Assembly (NCBI RefSeq): GCF_007570935.1
Contig: NZ_VLLR01000001.1
Span: forward strand, 1,612,001-1,676,000
Direction of reading: 5' to 3'
From: Lactobacillus sp. LL6
GTDB lineage: Bacteria; Bacillota; Bacilli; Lactobacillales; Lactobacillaceae
DNA: 64,000 bases
Below, one piece after another: positions 34,394-58,541 of this stretch. The notes beneath the pieces were generated by a model that was not told the origin of the DNA, did no database searches, and saw only the letters and a program-made list of their open reading frames with translations. Position numbers and translations under genes: made by a program. How positions within the stretch are numbered: the stretch's first letter is position 1; each line of letters starts with the position of its first letter.

Positions 34394-35500
34394 TTAGTTA
34401 ACAATAGCCTTAGTAGTATCTTTGTCAAAGAAGTGAGCTTTATTAACATCAAAGCCCATTCTGACTTTGTCGCCGGGTTCATGATAATCACGAGCATTTA
34501 CAATAGCAACAAATTCGGTACCATCGACTTTTTGATATAGCTGAATAGTTGCACCTAAAAGTTCAGAAACAACAACTTCTGATTCAACTACAGCATTTGG
34601 CCAAGTTTCCAAAAAGGCTTCTTCAGCGTGAATATCTTCAGGACGAATCCCAAATACTACATCCTTATCTGCGTAACCTTTTTCTTCAAGCATCTTGGCT
34701 TTTCCTTCAGGAATCTCAATATTAAGACCCTTACCATCAGTAATACGCTGATTTTTATAATGAACATTGAAAAAGTTCATTTGAGGAGATCCAATAAATC
34801 CAGCTACAAATTGATTTACTGGATGGTTATATACCTCAAGGGGAGTGCCAATTTGTTCAACTCTACCAACTGACATAACTACAACTCTATCAGCCAAAGT
34901 CATGGCTTCAGTTTGGTCGTGAGTTACATAAATAGTAGTTGTGCCAAGACGTTGATGAAGCTTGGCAATATTGGCACGCATTGATACACGTAATTTTGCA
35001 TCAAGGTTTGAAAGTGGTTCATCCATCAAAAAAATTGGAGCATCGCGCACAATTGCACGTCCAAGTGCTACACGCTGACGTTGACCACCAGATAATTCTC
35101 CTGGCTTTTTATCAAGATATTGCTTCAATCCTAAAATATCAGCAGCATGTTGTACTCGCTTTTCAATTTCGTCCTTTGAATAATGACGCAACTTTAAACT
35201 AAATGCCATATTGTCATAAATTGACATGTGAGGATACAAGGCATAGTTTTGGAATACCATAGCAATGTGTCGGTCTTTTGGAGCAACATCGTTCATTACT
35301 TTATGGTCGATTTCTAACGTACCCTTACTAATATCCTCAAGTCCCGCTACCATTCTTAAGGTAGTTGACTTACCACAACCAGATGGTCCAACAAAAACGA
35401 TAAATTCTTTATCTTTAATATGTAAATCAAAGTCATTTACAGAATAGTAATCATTTCCTGGATATTTTTTATAGATATGGTTTAAATCAACTTCAACCAT
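34394..35500 (-). CDS. malK: Sugar ABC transporter ATPase MalK/MsmK
   Basis: The 368-residue protein has Walker [11 protein letters not shown] (about 38-47), signature [15 protein letters not shown] (about 135-149), Walker [16 protein letters not shown], and the C-terminal TOBE/regulatory domain (about 240-368) of CUT1 ATPases, including [13 protein letters not shown]. It energises the MalEFG importer and may serve other CUT1 systems. It is the first gene of the operon; an upstream region with two cre sites and a MalR-type operator controls it. Confidence 0.93.
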
Positions 35501-35657: not shown

Positions 35658-35706
35658 AAATATTAAAAAAGCAGACTAAATTGTCTGCTTTTGTTATTTA
35701 TTCTCT
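35658..35706. repeat. Left direct repeat and terminator bounding the microcin-C-like island
   Basis: About 49 bases with the hairpin GCAGAC-TAAATT-GTCTGC and TTTGTTATTTATTCT following are nearly identical to 39137-39187, in direct orientation, differing by small indels and one substitution. It also acts as terminator of the rgg gene, whose last codons it contains. The two copies are 3479 bases apart. Confidence 0.9.
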
Positions 35707-36557
35707 AGTCTTTTAATTTCATCCATAAATTCAAAGGCTGTATCTCTTTGATTCAGACTAGAAGCTATATTAATTAACTCACTAAGTTTAGAGAGATCCT
35801 TATTTTTATCCTTTTTATAATTTAATAATTCAATTAAAAACTGTCTCCGTAACTCTATATACAAAAAATCTCGTTTTATTGGTATGTCTTTGATTTTTAT
35901 AGCCAATTTTTCAGCATAAAGATAATTTTTTCTTACAATTAAAATATCTAATGCATTTAATAATGTATGAAATGCAATACTATAAGTTGCTACTCCATCT
36001 TGATTTATATCATCCAATACTTGAATATCAGACCAATTAGATATTAATAGGCTTGTTAATCCATAGATATTTTTATCAGATAGCAAAACAATGCTATTCC
36101 CTAAAATACTAATATATTTTTTAGTCCACAATTTAACATCTGATAACTTATTGATTAATTTCTCTTGGTACTTAGATGATAATAAATTTTTACCACTTAA
36201 ATCATAATAGTAATTACATGAGATTACTGCCAAATATAAATCATCAAGAGACCGTCTTTTTTGATAAAGTTTTATTCGTTTTGTAGTTAAGGTTTCAAGA
36301 CCTTCATTATCCTTAGTCATATACAGAGATTCTATTTTTTTAACTACTGAACTAGGTGTTGCAATTTTAGCCAATTTAAAAAATTCCTCAGGAGTTAAAT
36401 TAATTCGCTTAATTAATTTAACAAATTTTTCAAAAGTAATATCACTTTTTCCATTTTCCCATAACGATAACAACGGAACTGATACTATATTTTTAGCAGC
36501 ATTTTTTTGCAAAATATTTTGTTGAACACGCAATTTTTTATAAATTTCTCCATACAT
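35694..36557 (-). CDS. Rgg/MutR-family transcriptional regulator
   Basis: The 287-residue protein has an N-terminal XRE helix-turn-helix (IYKKLRVQQNILQKNAAKNIVSVPLLSLWENGKSDITFEKFVKLIKRI, about 5-52). A long helical region of TPR-like character follows (about 60-285). This is the Rgg build, in which the C-terminal domain binds a short imported peptide pheromone. The family has a SxWENGKS sequence at the end of the recognition helix. It is divergent from the SHP-like peptide and the microcin-like genes and probably controls them. Two more Rgg-like genes lie at 48706 and 57672. Confidence 0.85.
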   Translation of the reverse strand: MYGEIYKKLRVQQNILQKNAAKNIVSVPLLSLWENGKSDITFEKFVKLIKRINLTPEEFFKLAKIATPSSVVKKIESLYMTKDNEGLETLTTKRIKLYQKRRSLDDLYLAVISCNYYYDLSGKNLLSSKYQEKLINKLSDVKLWTKKYISILGNSIVLLSDKNIYGLTSLLISNWSDIQVLDDINQDGVATYSIAFHTLLNALDILIVRKNYLYAEKLAIKIKDIPIKRDFLYIELRRQFLIELLNYKKDKNKDLSKLSELINIASSLNQRDTAFEFMDEIKRLENK

Positions 36558-36733
36558 TTTCGTTCTTATCTCCTCTTGCTACTTTTTATACAGCCTATTT
36601 TTATAAGCTAGTTTCTCTTAATACCAATCATTTCAGCTATTATTTATAAAGTAAACTTTAGTATTTTAAATAAAATTAAAATTAAATTTTATTTATTTTA
36701 CACTATATGTATCAAGTAACGAAAGGAGAAAAA

Positions 36734-36820
36734 ATGAAAATCAGGAAATATTTCATTACACTATTAAGTTTATATGTCTTGCCAACTACTCTTATTCAAT
36801 TATTGGCAAAACTATCTTAG
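36734..36820 (+). CDS. Short hydrophobic peptide (SHP-like pheromone candidate)
   Basis: This 28-codon gene is too short for normal gene finders. It has GAAAGGAG 6 bases before the ATG. The peptide has a basic start (MKIRK) and a hydrophobic body with a Pro near the middle (TLLSLYVLPTTLIQLLAKLS). It is divergent from the rgg gene, the layout of SHP/Rgg pairs in streptococci, where a short C-terminal part is secreted and reimported. It lacks the acidic residue usually found near the cleavage site in streptococcal SHPs. An alternative is a leader peptide. Promoter not certain; a dyad ATAAAATT/AATTTTAT lies at 36670-36692. Confidence 0.6.
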   Translation: MKIRKYFITLLSLYVLPTTLIQLLAKLS

Positions 36821-36852
36821 TTTTTATATTAATTTGAAAGGAGATGATTTTT

Positions 36853-36888
36853 ATGACAACTCGTCAATGGCGCAACGGTGGTCGTTAA
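36853..36888 (+). CDS. Microcin-C-like precursor peptide candidate (11 codons)
   Basis: The reading frame encodes MTTRQWRNGGR. AAAGGAG ends about 9 bases before the ATG at 36853, a strong ribosome-binding site for so short a gene. It lies directly before a terminator-like hairpin and a MccB-like gene, the position of mccA in microcin C operons. Its C-terminus is NGGR, whereas MccB substrates end in Asn. An in-frame Asn is at residue 8. A second, out-of-frame peptide MAQRWSLIMYFN (ATG 36867, AAC-TAA at 36900-36905) does end in Asn but lacks a ribosome-binding site. The real precursor is unresolved. Confidence 0.65.
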   Translation: MTTRQWRNGGR

Positions 36889-36899
36889 TAATGTACTTT

Positions 36900-36934
36900 A
36901 ACTAACAAGTCTAACTTGTTAGTTTTATTTTATC
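36900..36934 (+). terminator. Hairpin between the precursor peptide and the MccB-like gene
   Basis: Perfect 10-bp arms AACTAACAAG (36900-36909) and CTTGTTAGTT (36915-36924) close a TCTAA loop and are followed by TTATTTTAT. It begins 11 bases after the peptide stop. In E. coli mcc operons a hairpin at this place gives more mccA than mccB transcript through a ribosome-controlled termination mechanism. Such a role here is inference. Confidence 0.85.
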
Positions 36935-36949
36935 TAAGGGAATAAAAAC

Positions 36950-37930
36950 ATGGAAATTAAATTAAAGAAAACATTACAACCAACTATTGAAAACGATGAA
37001 ATTGTTTTTGGATACGGTAATCCAACATTAGTTAGAAAAATTTCTAATACATCTATCAATCGTAATCTCATTAAATTTCTTAATGATGAAATTACACGTT
37101 CTGAAATTAATATAACAGACGCAGAACTGAAAGAAAAGATAAAGGAATTTACAAATTTGGGCATTTTAACCACAAATGATTATCAAACACAATATAGGTA
37201 TTCTAGAAATTATAATTTTTATGAATGGATTGATATTTCTAAAAATGTTAATCCAATAAAATACCAAAATATTTTATCACAAGTTCATGTAATGATTTTT
37301 GGATTAGGTGGTATAGGATCTAACGTTGCAGAACAACTTATACGCACAGGAATCAAACACTTCACATTATTAGACTTTGATAAAGTAGATTATTCTAATT
37401 TAACTCGACAAGGAGCTTATACTGAACAAGATATTAACATCTTTAAAACAGAGGCTTGCAAAAATTATCTTAGTTCAATTGATAGTAAAACTTCAATTAA
37501 AACTATTAATATTCAAATTAAATCTAAACAAGATATAGAAAAATTACTTAATTCTAATACTAAAGTAGACTTAATTATAAATTGCATGGACAGACCCAAG
37601 AATATAGATAGGTGGTTTGATAGTATCTCTAATCAGTTTAATATTCCTGTTATCTTTGGAAGTTATGCTTCCACGTGTGCTAATGTATTTGTAAAAATTC
37701 CTAAAATTACTATAAATTATAGTGATTTTGTAGGAGAAAATGGTATTGAAGCTGATACTTTAGTAAAGTGTGAATTTCCAACCGCTGTAATAGCTCCAGT
37801 AACATATATGGCCGCTGGTTTAGTTGCTTACAACGCCATTTTATTACTCACTAAATTACGTATCCCTAAAACAGCAATACAAATAGATTTCGATAGTTGG
37901 GACATTCTTAAATATGACGTATCAAAATAA
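36950..37930 (+). CDS. MccB-like ThiF/E1-family peptide adenylyltransferase
   Basis: The 326-residue enzyme has an N-terminal peptide-clamp-like region (about 1-85), then RYSRNYNFYEWIDI (about 84-97), which matches the RYSRN segment of E. coli MccB by memory. The Rossmann nucleotide-binding loop FGLGGIGSNVAE is at about 119-130, followed by DFDKVDYSNLTRQGAYTEQDI (about 143-163), the catalytic ThiF-type region with its Arg and Gln, a Lys in IFKTEACKN, and metal-binding Asp in NCMDRP. Paired CxxC zinc motifs are absent. Microcin C-type MccB activates the peptide C-terminal Asn with ATP and forms an N-P bond to AMP. Overlaps the MFS gene by 17 bases. Confidence 0.85.
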   Translation: MEIKLKKTLQPTIENDEIVFGYGNPTLVRKISNTSINRNLIKFLNDEITRSEINITDAELKEKIKEFTNLGILTTNDYQTQYRYSRNYNFYEWIDISKNVNPIKYQNILSQVHVMIFGLGGIGSNVAEQLIRTGIKHFTLLDFDKVDYSNLTRQGAYTEQDINIFKTEACKNYLSSIDSKTSIKTINIQIKSKQDIEKLLNSNTKVDLIINCMDRPKNIDRWFDSISNQFNIPVIFGSYASTCANVFVKIPKITINYSDFVGENGIEADTLVKCEFPTAVIAPVTYMAAGLVAYNAILLLTKLRIPKTAIQIDFDSWDILKYDVSK

Positions 37931-39158
37931 AATTGAAAATCAAAACTTCTGGAAACTAATTTTAGGTCAATCGCTTTTTACAATTGGTGATTCAATATTT
38001 GAAATTTTACTACTTTACACTTTAGTAAAAAATTATCATGCAAATTCTAGTATTCTAGGAATATTTGGAATAATTGCAATACTTCCCTCAATGCTATTAG
38101 CAATATTAGTACCTAAACTTGCAACTATTAAGAATCAAAAATTTTTACTAATATTTTTACAAGCTTCAGCAATTCTTATTCTCATAACAGAAGTATGCTT
38201 AATAATATTTAAATTTAATTTGATATATATTGGAATTTTACAATTTTTGCTTCAACTTATTGTTACAATATCTGGTTCTATTGAAATCGGCTATATACCT
38301 ATAATTTTATATGAAGATCAATCTGAAATAGACAAAACTGTCAACATTAGCTATGTTACTAGTTCTGTATTAACAATTTTAACAGGATTAATTAGTTCAG
38401 GTGTAATTATAACTATTGGAAGTTCATTACTACTAATACTCAGTATTCTTTTACCATTTATAGGTATATTTTTTTATTTAGGTATAAATTATCATACTCC
38501 TAAACAAGAAGAACCTAATATTATTAACGATACCACTGAAAAAACATACTTATCACTATTAAAAGGAAAGTTTTATACATATACTCATACTTTACCTGCA
38601 TTTTTAATAATCTTATCAGAAGCTATTCTTGGCGGTTTAACAGGACTATTATTGCAACTTTTACCAATAACTATGAAAGAACTTGGTTTAGCAGTCGCTT
38701 TATTTCCATTAGTATCTTCAATTCAAAAAACAGGTGATGTCTGCGGTGGATTGCTGGCTCCATTTATAAAATTAAATGCTCATAGTTTTTTTATAATTGA
38801 TTATATTATTACCGGAGGTAGTTTTATTGTTATAGGGATTCCTGGAATGCCTGATATCATTAGATTATTCTTTTTGCTAATTTCTTCATTGACTACTGGA
38901 CTTAGTGGTAATATTTTTGAAAAACTTATGTATCGGTCATTCTCATCACAGGACATGAGTTCTATGCACGCACTTGTTACTTCAACTTTTTCATTATTTT
39001 CATTAGTTAGTTATTTCAGCTCCTTTCTTAAAATCTCCACTCTTTATTTATGGATTGGAACTGGAATATTTTCACTAATTATAGGACTAGCTTTGATTAT
39101 TTATAGCCATCTTAATTCACCCACCATTACAAAATTAAATATTAAAGAAGCAGACTAA
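37914..39158 (+). CDS. MFS exporter of the microcin-C-like operon (MccC-like)
   Basis: The 414-residue protein has about 12 membrane spans, starting FWKLILGQSLFTIGDSIFEILLLYTLV. The sequence is very rich in Ile/Leu and uses AT-rich codons. It overlaps the MccB-like gene by 17 bases, so the two are translationally coupled, as are mccB and mccC. It most likely exports the modified peptide and gives some self-protection. The last four codons (IKEAD stop region) lie inside the right direct repeat. No mccE or mccF immunity gene is present. Confidence 0.8.
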   Translation: MTYQNKIENQNFWKLILGQSLFTIGDSIFEILLLYTLVKNYHANSSILGIFGIIAILPSMLLAILVPKLATIKNQKFLLIFLQASAILILITEVCLIIFKFNLIYIGILQFLLQLIVTISGSIEIGYIPIILYEDQSEIDKTVNISYVTSSVLTILTGLISSGVIITIGSSLLLILSILLPFIGIFFYLGINYHTPKQEEPNIINDTTEKTYLSLLKGKFYTYTHTLPAFLIILSEAILGGLTGLLLQLLPITMKELGLAVALFPLVSSIQKTGDVCGGLLAPFIKLNAHSFFIIDYIITGGSFIVIGIPGMPDIIRLFFLLISSLTTGLSGNIFEKLMYRSFSSQDMSSMHALVTSTFSLFSLVSYFSSFLKISTLYLWIGTGIFSLIIGLALIIYSHLNSPTITKLNIKEAD

Positions 39159-39187
39159 ATTGTCTGCTCTTTGTTATTTATTCTAGT
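39137..39187. repeat. Right direct repeat and terminator bounding the microcin-C-like island
   Basis: This copy of the repeat at 35658-35706 contains the end of the MFS exporter gene and the hairpin GCAGAC-TAAATT-GTCTGC. It also ends the convergent neopullulanase gene. Recombination between the copies would excise the whole 3.5 kb island and leave one terminator. Confidence 0.9.
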
Positions 39188-40910
39188 TTTCCTTGTTAGA
39201 AACTACAAAGCCTTTAGGAGTAAGGATGCCATTTTTATATCCTTGGCTAAGATTATCATCGACTGTTATCTTTATATCTTTATTAGTTGTATTAAAATAT
39301 GCAACAATTTCTTGATTACCGGTACGTTTAACCTCAATAAGTCCATCCTTTGTTACCGATAATAAAATACTGCCTTTACTCAAGGTTTCACTATTATCTA
39401 AACGATACTTAATAAGATTATGGACCTTCTTCCAAGTATCTTTATCTTTTTTGCTCCAATCCATTGGCTTACGGCAATCTGGATCATTTCCACCGTTCAT
39501 TCCCATTTCTGTTCCATAATAAATACATGGACTACCTGGCTGTAAAAACATAAAAGTTAACCCTTGAAGAGCTAATGCTTGATCATCTTTAGCAACTGTC
39601 AAAATTCTAGCAGTATCATGGCTATCAAGCATATTCATCATTACTTGATTAGTCATATCACGATACATCATCAATTGATCTGTTAAATGCTCTACTAAAT
39701 CTTCTGCGCTAGTCTTATTTTTAAAGAAATGATCCTCAATTTGTAAAGTGTAAGGATAATTCATGACTCCAGAAAATTCATCCCCATTAAGCCACGGACG
39801 TGCAGAATGCCAAATTTCACCAACAATATAGAAATTAGGTTTAATCTTTACAAGTTCATCATGGAATCTTCTCCAAAAATGATGATCTACTTCATTTGCT
39901 ACATCTAAACGCCAAGCATCAATGTCAAAATATTTAACCCAGTAAGTCGCAATTTCTAATAAATATTCTTGAACCTCCGGATTTGCAGTATTTAATTTTG
40001 GCATATGCTTTTCAAAAGCAAATGTATCATATGGAGCCTCACCTTCTCCTTTTGATGGATCTTTATAAGGTTCAACTGGGAAATAATTAATATGGAACCA
40101 GTCTTTAAAGCGTGACTTTTCTCCGTTTTGAACAACATCCCGCCATTGCATTGACTCGTCACCTAAATGATTGAAAACTGCATCCAGCATAATTTTCATT
40201 CCACGTTTATGAGCTTCATTTACTAATTTATTAAATAACTCTTTATCTCCAAAATCTGGATCAATATCAAAATAATCAATAGTATCATACTTATGATTAG
40301 ATGGTGCTTTAAAAATTGGACACATATATAATCCAGTTACGCCCAATTCTTGCAAATAATCTAAATGATCAATTATTCCTTGTAAATCTCCTCCATAAAA
40401 ATCATCTCGACCAGGATGGTCTTGTGGATTCCATGGTTTTACATTTTTAGGGTCATTACTTTTATCTCCATTAGCAAATCTCTCCGGAAAAATCTGATAC
40501 CATACAGTCTGCTTGACCCAATCGGGGGTTTTAGTCATATCAATTTCATGTAAATAAGGTCTCTTAAAATATGATCCATCTTCATTAAGATTTTCTTTTG
40601 AAAATTCGCTAATCCCACGATCTCCCAAAATAACTTTTGTACCATCTTTACCAACAATTTCAAAAGTATACTTCAAACGATGATATGGTGCTGTTAAAGT
40701 TGCAGCCCAATAGTCACTAACTTGACCCCTACCGATTTTTTTTAGTTCAATTTTTTTAACTGATTCAGTAGGCATATAGTTATCTGTATAATATGCAAAA
40801 ATCTCTGCCACATCATCCTTGCCTGTATGTACACGAACGCGGACATGTTTATTATCTAAAGCAAAACAATCTTCACTTTCAGTTCTATGTCTTAATGCTG
40901 CTAATTGCAT
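39183..40910 (-). CDS. Neopullulanase/maltogenic amylase-type GH13 enzyme
   Basis: The 575-residue protein has an N-terminal CBM34-like domain (about 1-120, with DDVAEIFAYYTDNYMP) followed by a GH13 barrel. GH13 regions are visible: DAVFNHLG (about 243-250), WRLDVANEV with the nucleophile Asp (about 330), IVGEIWH with the acid Glu (about 360) and LDSHDTA. The N-domain and size match GH13_20 cyclomaltodextrinase/neopullulanase. It cleaves maltodextrins to maltose and glucose in the cytoplasm (no signal peptide). It follows the alpha-glucosidase gene. Confidence 0.9.
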   Translation of the reverse strand: MQLAALRHRTESEDCFALDNKHVRVRVHTGKDDVAEIFAYYTDNYMPTESVKKIELKKIGRGQVSDYWAATLTAPYHRLKYTFEIVGKDGTKVILGDRGISEFSKENLNEDGSYFKRPYLHEIDMTKTPDWVKQTVWYQIFPERFANGDKSNDPKNVKPWNPQDHPGRDDFYGGDLQGIIDHLDYLQELGVTGLYMCPIFKAPSNHKYDTIDYFDIDPDFGDKELFNKLVNEAHKRGMKIMLDAVFNHLGDESMQWRDVVQNGEKSRFKDWFHINYFPVEPYKDPSKGEGEAPYDTFAFEKHMPKLNTANPEVQEYLLEIATYWVKYFDIDAWRLDVANEVDHHFWRRFHDELVKIKPNFYIVGEIWHSARPWLNGDEFSGVMNYPYTLQIEDHFFKNKTSAEDLVEHLTDQLMMYRDMTNQVMMNMLDSHDTARILTVAKDDQALALQGLTFMFLQPGSPCIYYGTEMGMNGGNDPDCRKPMDWSKKDKDTWKKVHNLIKYRLDNSETLSKGSILLSVTKDGLIEVKRTGNQEIVAYFNTTNKDIKITVDDNLSQGYKNGILTPKGFVVSNKEN

Positions 40911-48690: not shown

Positions 48691-48727
48691 AAAAAGAAGC
48701 GCGAATTATTTCGGGCTTCTTTTATTT
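48691..48727. terminator. Bidirectional terminator
   Basis: AAAAGAAGC-type arm pairs with GCTTCTTTT, with an inner CGAA/TCG pairing and A/T runs on each side. It lies between the 35-codon peptide and the Rgg-like gene and includes the end of the latter. Confidence 0.85.
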
Positions 48728-49572
48728 TGAGCTACATCCTTGCACAATAATGCAAGTTCATTTGCATATTCTGAATAACCTACTTCGCCCAGCAGTGAAG
48801 TAACTTTTTCCATTTTTTGAACTGCAAAATTATCCCCTAATTGATAATTAAGTAGATTATTTAGGAAAGACAATTTCACTTTTGCATACATTAAGTATCG
48901 CGGAATCTCCAAATTCTCTAATAGTATTTTTGCTTTTTTAGCTAAAACTATACTTGTCTTAATAAGTTTTGTATAAGCATTAAGTAAAGCTATAATCATG
49001 CAATTTTTTCTTTTGGCATCTACATTTGAGATTTCATCTATAGCAATAACTATACTTTTCATATATTGAAAAATTCTCTCATTATCTATAACTTCTACTA
49101 CATTTCCAAATGCTCTACTGTAATATTCATTCCAACTTTGAACCCTATCAAAAATCGAATATAATTCTGCTTTCAACTTATTAGAAAGAATGCTTTTATT
49201 AGTCAAATCTTGATACATGCAACAAATCGTTACTACTAAAAACAAATCAAGTTCTTCTGTAGTATTTTCATAATTTTTAAGCTGAGTTTGAGCTAATCCA
49301 TATAGTCCTCTACTATCTTTTTCTGAATATAGTTTTTTCAGTTTTTCAAAAATTACATTCCTCTTTTTATTAGCATTTGTTTTTGCAATCATAATGAATT
49401 CGTCAGGATACATATTTATTTTCTTCAAAAGCTCAATTACATTACCAAAATACATATCACCTTTGCCATTTTCCCAACGTGATAAGGTCGCTGCATCAAC
49501 AATTCCGCTCGAAGCTTGGCTTAAGGTTAAACCATGTTTTTTGCGTAACTTTTTATAAGTATTTCCGTATAT
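48706..49572 (-). CDS. Rgg/MutR-family regulator lacking an ATG start
   Basis: The frame is open upstream of the first Met (MYFGNVIELL at 49455) and reads, from 49572, ATA-TAC-GGA-AAT, then YKKLRKKHGLTLSQASSGIVDAATLSRWENGKGD. This is the same XRE helix-turn-helix as in the rgg at 35694, where the equivalent codons are ATG-TAC-GGA. From ATA the protein is 288 residues, equal to its two paralogues (287 and 289). A canonical ATG/GTG/TTG is absent between the upstream in-frame stop and the helix-turn-helix. Either a rare ATA start is used, or the start codon is mutated and the gene is crippled. The helical C-terminal domain is intact. Confidence 0.75.
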   Translation of the reverse strand: MYGNTYKKLRKKHGLTLSQASSGIVDAATLSRWENGKGDMYFGNVIELLKKINMYPDEFIMIAKTNANKKRNVIFEKLKKLYSEKDSRGLYGLAQTQLKNYENTTEELDLFLVVTICCMYQDLTNKSILSNKLKAELYSIFDRVQSWNEYYSRAFGNVVEVIDNERIFQYMKSIVIAIDEISNVDAKRKNCMIIALLNAYTKLIKTSIVLAKKAKILLENLEIPRYLMYAKVKLSFLNNLLNYQLGDNFAVQKMEKVTSLLGEVGYSEYANELALLCKDVAQNKRSPK

Positions 49573-57671: not shown

Positions 57672-58541
57672 ATGATTAAAAATGAAATTGGTAAAAAATT
57701 TAGAGAACTTCGAGAACTACAAAACATAACCTTAACTAAAGCTACTCAAAATATTGATAATCTCTCTGTATCAAGAGTTTCACATTGGGAAACCGGTGAT
57801 GGAGAAATACCTTTATCAAAATTAAATCAGCTCTTATATAATATCCATATCTTACCTAGTGAATTTGAAAATTGGACAAAATTACGTCCAGAGAATCAAC
57901 TAATAAATAATCTTCAAAAAGCTTTTATTGAAAATGATTTAGATTTAATTTTGTCATTATCAAGATCACAGTTAGATATGTACAAAAATACTAATAAAAA
58001 CGAAGATTTATTTTTGGCTGCTACTGGCTACAATTTATACTTCCAAATAACACAAAAAAATTTGCTTTCTACAAATTATCAACAAAAGCTCTACATCGCT
58101 TTAAGTAATGTAGACTTCTGGAGCCAATATTACATAAGTATTTTCAGTAATACTCTTGATCTCTTGGATTCAAATTTTGTTTATAGACTTTCTTGCTCCA
58201 TAACCAATAACTTTTCCACTATTCAAAAGTTAGGATTAGAAACTGAAATTTATGCTACTACTTCACTCTTAAATGCATTAAACATGCTAACCTTAAAAGA
58301 AACAACTTTAGCACAGAAATTATTAACTAAAATCAATAAACTACCCTATTCTGCTTTTAACACTGATTCAAGTTTAAGAAAAAAATTTCTATCTCACATA
58401 TTGTCCTATCAAACTAACAATAATAAGAATGATTACAACATAGCTAACTCTATTTCTAATTTAGCTTCATTAATTGATCGAGATAATCTCGCAAAAGAGC
58501 TAAAGTTGACATTATCTAAAGTTCAAAACTCCTCCAAATAA
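57672..58541 (+). CDS. Rgg/MutR-family transcriptional regulator
   Basis: The 289-residue protein has an N-terminal XRE helix-turn-helix (IGKKFRELRELQNITLTKATQNIDNLSVSRVSHWETGDGEIPLSKLNQLL, about 5-54) and a helical C-terminal domain of the Rgg type. It is divergent from the small secreted protein gene and probably activates it in response to an internalised peptide. No obvious short hydrophobic peptide gene lies next to it. It is the third Rgg paralogue in the window. Confidence 0.85.
   Translation: MIKNEIGKKFRELRELQNITLTKATQNIDNLSVSRVSHWETGDGEIPLSKLNQLLYNIHILPSEFENWTKLRPENQLINNLQKAFIENDLDLILSLSRSQLDMYKNTNKNEDLFLAATGYNLYFQITQKNLLSTNYQQKLYIALSNVDFWSQYYISIFSNTLDLLDSNFVYRLSCSITNNFSTIQKLGLETEIYATTSLLNALNMLTLKETTLAQKLLTKINKLPYSAFNTDSSLRKKFLSHILSYQTNNNKNDYNIANSISNLASLIDRDNLAKELKLTLSKVQNSSK

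Follow-up and report, generated by a model that had tools for sequence, protein, structure and literature searches.

Within a 64,000-nucleotide stretch of Lactobacillus sp. LL6 (NCBI RefSeq contig NZ_VLLR01000001.1, positions 1,612,001 to 1,676,000; hereafter the window), we analyzed a 3.49-kb island (35661..39148) that is inserted between genes for a maltodextrin ATP-binding cassette (ABC) ATPase and a neopullulanase-like protein of the alpha-amylase family. Its probable product is a short peptide that is chemically modified and secreted. We read it, with moderate confidence, as a minimal, peptide-regulated cluster for a ribosomally synthesized and post-translationally modified peptide (RiPP), built around a distinct clade of ThiF-like adenylyltransferases that would activate the carboxylate of a C-terminal Arg and then close a ring on an internal nitrogen. 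An initial annotation had read the same genes as a microcin-C-like peptidyl-nucleotide island; our conclusion is that the enzyme probably works like MccB in its first step, yet the cluster is probably not microcin C.

The putative precursor is the 11-codon peptide with a strong ribosome-binding site that the initial annotation had pointed out (coordinates of all features are given in Table 1). Relatives were sought in 75 genomes of the genus, 397 of the family, 395 of the order, 26 and 247 of two genera, and 398 of the class; the sets partly share genomes, and sampling was used for the larger ones. Ten distinct precursors with the same kind of end were obtained from 13 genomes: MTTRQWRNGGR, METYSNAQWRDGNR, MTLDGDRVGWRKGCGLR, MTEVVELPGGWRWGKR, MDFADLNGSNGHRVGGR, MSSRLPAPKHSSLPPVGFRVGSR, MTAEVVNRPGYRIGGR, MTVVAVQTFPGHRVGGR, MSAVPYSFQGHRLGGR, and MSAVPCSFQGHRLGGR. 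All of them end in Arg, and one has two extra residues. Position counts were made on eight ungapped precursors, leaving out the one with two extra residues and a near-duplicate. Counting back from the C-terminal residue as position 0, R(-4), G(-2), and R(0) were invariant, position -6 was G or Q, and position -5 was W, H, F, or Y, with Trp in three of the eight (the window's included) and Phe in one. Precursor length in the clade ranges from 11 to 23 residues, the window's being the shortest, and is at least 17 residues in 4 of the 10. Conservation is confined to the C-terminal end, as in EnfA (WWIVI) and IndA (NWYFI), and does not extend to the N-terminal half. An open reading frame (ORF) that is preceded by a Shine-Dalgarno sequence and ends in [WHFY]R.G.{1,3}R lies at most 450 nt upstream of the enzyme gene at 9 of 10 loci, compared with 0 of 10,000 dinucleotide shuffles, and the precursor ORF is therefore beyond chance. 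At the tenth locus (L109), the precursor is present but lies farther upstream than 450 nt.

Between the precursor and the enzyme gene stands the perfect 10-bp hairpin described in the initial annotation, which was flagged as terminator-like. This stretch had a folding z of -2.45, with 7 of 200 shuffles folding equally well. Hairpins at the same place were found at all 10 clade loci and all 3 loci of a sister type (see below) that were folded, where the script takes the best hairpin per locus and the shuffle test applies to the window hairpin only. At the E. coli control locus (L106), the script found no simple hairpin, and the annotated MccB start leaves just 41 nt there; the terminator after the mcc precursor is taken from the accessible part of PMC6495379. 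A hairpin directly 3' of the 11-residue ORF would also suit a translated leader that attenuates the enzyme gene only, with the substrate encoded elsewhere or the enzyme in another role, and the enzyme gene is indeed retained with no nearby precursor in L. acetotolerans (G002; L003/L019). We consider this explanation very improbable. Divergent loci share the conserved peptide end, well beyond the shuffles, and the L. acetotolerans enzyme has altered ATP-site motifs (GIDKIG, ANLANQ), which is consistent with decay following loss of the precursor.

All three segments by which a ThiF/MccB-like enzyme had been recognized (RYSRN, GLGGIGSN, and SNLTRQ) are present in the protein. Its ATP-site residues R153, Q154, K166, and D214 are kept and align with those of MccB and of IndF-like and EnfB-like proteins. 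MccB was the best PDB profile match (E = 9e-39, with MoeB at 6e-22) and also the best Foldseek match of the enzyme model, while the VIA-align Z of the model's ThiF domain was tied between MccB and MoeB. After MccB, the best single-protein sequence match was a strong one to AclA of Tenacibaculum discolor (PDB 9egb/9egc, released 2025); a report of AclA function was not found in the literature searched.

The Pfam ThiF domain and the equal structural fit to MoeB could also describe an ordinary ThiF/MoeB enzyme of sulfur-carrier activation, a reading to which we give almost no credence. The window enzyme falls short on both marks of the sulfur-transfer enzymes, the curated cut-offs and the CxxC pairs that form their zinc site: it scored well under the cut-offs of the NCBIfam ThiF/MoeB models (102.9 vs 159, 100.5 vs 275, and 71.9 vs 377), and a CxxC scan found no pair in it. 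Its best sequence match in the PDB is MccB, and a precursor and an exporter-like gene lie alongside. The initial annotation had named grouping with ThiF/MoeB proteins as the outcome that would speak against its proposal; by sequence, the enzyme does not group with them, but the structural Z leaves MccB and MoeB level.

The CxxC pairs are likewise absent from the enzymes of all 13 precursor-bearing genomes, from L003, and from three sister-type proteins, and they are present as two pairs each in MccB, in full-length IndF- and EnfB-like proteins, and in L076. Their loss is not specific to the clade, as L006, L089, L097, L171, and several short or truncated ORFs also lack them. In a tree of 60 rows (L073 and L107-L109 left out), ten clade enzymes group together with support of 100/97, namely nine that have a precursor and the decayed L003. 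The IndF-like enzymes (NWYFI/WYFI precursors) and EnfB-like enzymes (WWIVI/WWIII precursors) fall into other supported clades, and E. coli MccB sits on a long branch of unsure placement. The sister type is a group of three rows (support 99/100) whose precursors end in ...QNRVGGQ, ...MTRGEGGN, and ...MNRASDH; no fork firmly joins it to the clade.

Much of the island's layout recalls microcin C, including the MccB-like enzyme, the tiny precursor with its strong ribosome-binding site, the hairpin, and the exporter-like gene. To this extent the initial annotation stands. These features, together with MccB as the nearest solved relative, would fit a peptidyl nucleotide in which AMP or CMP is joined to the C-terminus by an N-P bond, giving a Trojan-horse inhibitor that would, given the Arg, target arginyl-tRNA synthetase (ArgRS). 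The ends of the sister-type precursors (Q, N, and H in L037, L038, and L075) also carry the side-chain nitrogen needed for MccB-like self-cyclization. We nevertheless regard a peptidyl nucleotide as unlikely, and several lines of evidence speak against it. The enzymes form a separate clade without CxxC pairs. In the accessible part of PMC6495379, all MccA precursors found near MccB-like genes are reported to end in Asn, which is required for the N-P bond, whereas the precursors are Arg-ended in 13 of 13 genomes here. The aspartyl-tRNA-synthetase-type Trojan horse of the initial annotation is therefore rejected as the main reading. The same part of that source gives precursor lengths of 7-8 residues for the main microcin C clade and 17-56 for a second one, and the window's 11 residues lie outside both ranges.

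The neighborhood also differs from that of microcin C. In E. coli, the mcc cluster includes genes for a methyltransferase, a GNAT protein, and an S66 peptidase. Among 20 flanking proteins from 8 loci that were searched against Pfam (the remaining flanks were inspected by eye), no S66, HIT, or methyltransferase family was found; four had no Pfam match at all (two in L018, one in L062, and one in L100). The single GNAT protein lies in L101 between TsaD- and TsaB-like genes and is probably the housekeeping rimI, a gene that often sits beside genes of this type. ArgRS (PF00750) occurs as a single copy in each of the 10 of 13 member genomes that were searched; there is no spare resistant copy, which weakens the case for ArgRS as a target. 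Taken as a whole, the cluster is probably not microcin C.

In the accessible part of PMC13255007, MccB turns a tag in which Gly replaces Asn into a thioester, so adenylation itself needs no Asn. A bolder variant, which we consider improbable, would have the clade's MccB chemistry turned to Arg: the C-terminal Arg would be adenylated, and its guanidine would cyclize or attack a second nucleotide, giving an arginyl-adenylate mimic and hence an Rgg-switched Trojan horse against ArgRS. The C-terminal residues of the clade (R) and the three sister loci (Q, N, H) all have the side-chain nitrogen that such Arg-nucleotide chemistry would need. Searches of two genera for more sister-type members (25 and 21 genomes) returned just the known one each, and the idea of an R/Q/N/H series thus rests on three sister loci.

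Activation of the carboxylate could also end in a capped linear peptide, serving as a signal or an antimicrobial, if the C-terminal Arg closed on itself as a delta-lactam or was amidated by a free amine. The invariance of Arg(0) in all 13 precursor-bearing genomes agrees with this, as does the amidation of the C-terminus by EnfB when amines are available, reported in the accessible part of PMC12250964. However, such a product would leave the invariant R(-4) and G(-2) unexplained, and we judge it distinctly unlikely.

Closure of a ring on an internal nitrogen, the reading that we prefer, follows what is known of related enzymes. ThiF-like RiPP enzymes adenylate a carboxylate that is then captured by varied nucleophiles (PMC12150305; accessible part of PMC12250964). 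IndF joins the C-terminal carboxylate to a Trp indole, releasing water (PMC12150305), and EnfB, as far as the accessible part of PMC12250964 describes it, closes the carboxylate on the backbone amide of Ile19 in a 21-residue precursor. Ile19 of 21 residues corresponds to position -2, which is the invariant Gly of this clade.

Based on these precedents and on the order of the genes, we propose the following working of the island. Rgg, together with a re-imported hydrophobic pheromone derived from the 28-residue peptide, would turn on the divergent promoter. A short, strongly translated mRNA would yield MTTRQWRNGGR, and the hairpin would curb read-through, a layout that, as in mcc, suggests much precursor and little enzyme. 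The ThiF-like enzyme would bind the precursor and, as its intact ATP site suggests, adenylate the C-terminal Arg carboxylate in an ATP-dependent step. By analogy with IndF and EnfB, an internal nitrogen of the R-x-G-x-R end would then capture the activated carboxylate with loss of water, leaving a small C-terminal ring. The capturing nitrogen would most likely come from the R(-4) guanidine or the G(-2) backbone amide, which are candidates because both residues are invariant. Trp(-5) is not the common nucleophile, because one precursor has Phe at this position. Finally, the product would be exported by the MFS-like protein (MFS, major facilitator superfamily) or, in L020, by two ABC proteins. 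An indolylamide of the IndF type was considered and rejected as the common reaction, given that position -5 is occupied by Phe in one precursor and by His or Tyr in some of the rest; for the window precursor itself, which has Trp at -5, it is possible.

Several observations weigh against the proposed reading. The Phe at -5 in one precursor excludes an IndF-type indole link as a common reaction, and the island has no leader peptidase gene, unlike the ind clusters. The full-length model of the enzyme is of moderate quality (pLDDT 72) and was built on 3 sequences. Assignment of its N-terminal domain, which has a predicted strand-helix structure, as a RiPP recognition element (RRE) is weak: the Foldseek matches of this domain to RRE proteins (TbiB1, MccB, and lasso B1) ranked near the top but all had E > 0.1, and its top match was an unrelated protein. 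By eye, no regulator of the RRNPP family was seen in the ORF lists beside L061, L062, L063, L099, and L020, so peptide control is not constant in the family. The window exporter has no Pfam match.

The regulatory part of the island agrees with what the initial annotation had described, namely a divergent Rgg gene, now supported by both Pfam and NCBIfam (RGG_Cterm, 39.5 bits vs a cut-off of 36.9), and a 28-codon hydrophobic peptide. No Pfam or NCBIfam match above cut-off was found for the peptide, and its position and composition make it a candidate pheromone. Rgg_C matches accompany the clusters of the window, L018, L066, L101, and L102, those in L018 and L102 being under the Pfam cut-off; L066 and L102 are sister-type loci, outside the clade. 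The rgg gene and the cluster diverge in the window, L018, L066, and L102 and share a strand in L101. L100 has a helix-turn-helix (HTH) regulator and a 44-residue peptide containing IDPGPAN, the signature of published TprA-like signals. The initial annotation had placed the main novelty in the precursor and in control by Rgg and a short hydrophobic peptide (SHP). Such control is plausible, but Rgg genes close to ThiF genes are already reported in S. thermophilus, where 11 of 21 regions contain radical-SAM or ThiF genes (PMC12445099). Two further Rgg-like proteins are encoded in the window, at 57672-58541 (+) and 48706-49455 (-), with 31% and 27% identity to the island Rgg, respectively; the second has a late start and is without the N-terminal HTH part.

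The last gene of the island overlaps the enzyme gene, as originally annotated, and we call its product MFS-like. Pfam was run on seven clade exporters: L062 matched above the cut-off (MFS_1), L061 (MFS_1) and L100 (MFS_3) matched below it, and no match was obtained in the window, L018, L063, or L099. By position and similarity, the exporter is MFS-like in eight of the nine distinct clade clusters inspected with their flanks (window, L018, L061, L062, L063, L099, L100, and L101); the ninth, L020, has the two ABC proteins in place of the MFS-like gene. The window exporter had no BLAST similarity to E. coli MccC (E 0.85).

The ThiF gene with its upstream precursor was found in 13 genomes (G000, G050, G067, G254, G237, G210, G750, G545, G669, G737, G837, G956, and G888). 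The arrangement, precursor first and then hairpin, ThiF, and exporter, is found again in Lactobacillus, in other Lactobacillaceae, in a further family of the order (G750), and in probable Streptococcus (G545, G669, G737, G837, G888, and G956), a probable assignment that draws partly on the TprA-like signal peptide. In one of the probable Streptococcus loci (L100 679-2379), a gene of the phage integrase family and a gene for a TIR-domain protein are found near the cluster.

Decayed forms accompany the intact ones. In G922 (L110), the precursor and the N-terminus of the enzyme are gone; in G110 (L036/L064), only the C-terminal part of the enzyme is present, immediately preceded by a precursor-like ...YWRYGNR; and in L. 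corticis (L032), 28 matching residues remain ahead of two ABC genes. In L. acetotolerans, the altered clade enzyme stands 12 nt behind a flavin reductase-like gene with FMN_bind and FAD_binding_2 domains (L019 1528-4275). A scan of genome contigs with the single window protein gave no match, and one with query A1 gave three loci, of which one is the L. corticis remnant.

A phage or plasmid origin of the enzyme was considered and rejected. Viral contigs gave no match with A1 or L066 and 16 loci with A3, whose best segments were 26-46% identical over part of the protein. A phage collection gave 13 records, none with >80% coverage. A plasmid scan returned 205 records, all with <60% identity, and further plasmid scans gave 1 record for L100 and 51 for L066. 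Of the plasmid regions L166, L167, L169, L170, and L171, four had both CxxC pairs in their enzyme, and none had an R-x-G-x-R precursor; L168 had no clean open frame. The precursor-like ORF of L169 ends in ...AVEPR and, like the ...VEGR types (L112, L129), shows that Arg ends are not confined to the clade.

Some neighboring systems were noted in passing. Further short precursor types occur at ThiF-like clusters, with the ends ...VEGR (L112, L129), ...GSC (L076, L111), MKIQAKKVESVRTTAVAA (L113 and similar), and ...AVEPR (L169). Two sister-type loci (L066 3130-4146 and L102 3973-4956) encode a protein of about 330 residues that has no Pfam match and contains HIWEH or HLLEH, which we take to be the HxxEH pattern of M16 peptidases; it is perhaps a leader peptidase like IndP of the ind clusters. 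In L009/L077 (Lactobacillus), seen by eye, a ThiF-like enzyme follows an acyl-carrier-like protein and a Cys-containing peptide of 41 residues.

The island's edges are formed by a direct repeat of 47/48 nt, 46 of 48 identical, each copy of which is a terminator-like hairpin. The boundaries of the initial annotation (35658..39187) were correct to a few bases and coincide with this repeat. The right copy contains the final codons of the MFS-like gene (39137-39158), so the insertion brought the end of this gene together with a terminator. A terminator scan found 5 terminator-like sites compared with 0.5 expected; four of these come from the two terminators at the island's edges, each counted on both strands. 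The insertion site was compared in six relatives among the 15 other genomes that gave a match. Four of them (L148, L149, L150, and L152) lack the island, as their flank matches are 77-310 nt apart and those of the window 3551-3787 nt; in the other two (L147 and L151), a left-flank match above cut-off was not found. The window had no Rfam match at the gathering threshold.

Table 1. Features of the island and its two neighboring genes, with coordinates in the window.
Feature	Position	Strand	Remarks
Maltodextrin ABC ATPase gene	34394-35500	-	Pfam; left neighbor of the island
Left direct-repeat copy (terminator), 3' of rgg	35658..35704		Terminator-like; 46/48 identical to right copy
Rgg-family (RRNPP) regulator	35694-36557	-	Pfam Rgg_C 2.1e-11, HTH_3 5.2e-8
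28-aa hydrophobic peptide, candidate SHP-like pheromone, divergent from rgg	36734-36820	+	MKIRKYFITLLSLYVLPTTLIQLLAKLS; basic N-terminus; ribosome-binding site present
Strong Shine-Dalgarno sequence of precursor	36837..36846	+	GAAAGGAGATGA; Shine-Dalgarno sequences also found in homologues
Putative precursor, 11 aa	36853-36888	+	MTTRQWRNGGR; C-terminal motif [WHFY]-R-x-G-x-R
Hairpin with T-rich sequence after it, separating precursor from enzyme gene; probable partial terminator	36900..36924	+	
ThiF-like adenylyltransferase, N-terminal RRE-like domain	36950-37930	+	Pfam ThiF 6.5e-41; 326 aa
MFS-like exporter gene	37914-39158	+	Overlaps ThiF gene by 17 nt; 15 overlapping hydrophobic segments
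Right direct-repeat copy (terminator)	39137..39184		Terminator-like; 46/48 identical to left copy
Neopullulanase-like alpha-amylase-family gene	39183-40910	-	Pfam; right neighbor of the island

The island has the conserved adjacent precursor ORF and the transporter of the broad kind of RiPP cluster built on ThiF-like adenylyltransferases, the transporter being recognized by position and similarity and weak by Pfam. We read it as a distinct branch of this kind, in which the new part is the precursor/enzyme clade, unless the group is already within the precursor logos that Wang 2024 drew after mining Lactobacillales for ThiF RiPPs, as the accessible part of a review relates (PMC12250964). An Arg-ended class or the motif of this clade was not found in the literature searched, and those logos may include the group. 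In the same literature, each characterized branch of ThiF-like RiPPs has its own bond (phosphoramidate, thiolactone, indolylamide, or imide). Five residues bounded on either side by an invariant Arg predict chemistry that these papers do not report for such enzymes, for example a Gly-imide ring or an acylguanidine. With an 11-residue precursor, one modifying enzyme, and no gene for a peptidase, the proposal can be tested in one reaction, and it gives lactobacilli a defined peptide-regulated product to search for.

Compared with known systems, the island shares with microcin C (E. coli and its L. johnsonii and H. pylori homologues) the enzyme family and fold, the tiny precursor ORF with a strong ribosome-binding site, the hairpin before the enzyme gene, and an MFS-like gene overlapping the latter. 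It differs in the Arg-ended [WHFY]-R-x-G-x-R precursor and the 11-23-residue range of its clade, in an enzyme of 326 residues without CxxC pairs (348-375 residues for MccB entries), in an exporter dissimilar to MccC by BLAST, and in the lack of S66, HIT, and methyltransferase genes in the scanned flanks. The RiPP loci of streptococci under SHP/Rgg or TprA/PapR-like regulation resemble it in having, as in the window, L018, L066, and L102, an Rgg gene divergent from a short hydrophobic peptide beside a peptide-modifying enzyme. Published SHPs are 20-26 residues long and frequently end in Gly, whereas the window peptide has 28 residues and no Gly end (PMC12445099); the host here is a Lactobacillus, and the pairing of Rgg and peptide is putative.

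The Ind type (IndA/IndF) also has a ThiF-like enzyme that acts on a Trp-bearing C-terminal end, and Trp is present at -5 in three of eight precursors here. The window has neither an NWYFI precursor nor an enzyme within the IndF clade; position -5 can be Phe, which offers no nucleophile, and a peptidase gene is lacking. Enterofaecin (EnfA/EnfB) differs in belonging to a separate clade with another end motif: the window has no WWIVI precursor and no membership in the EnfB clade, the EnfB-like enzymes keep both CxxC pairs, and the leader motif (V/I)RKA is absent from the precursors of this clade. The likeness lies in a ThiF-like enzyme, a conserved precursor C-terminal end, reported regulators of the quorum-sensing type, and an attacking amide of EnfA at -2, the position held by the invariant Gly of this clade.

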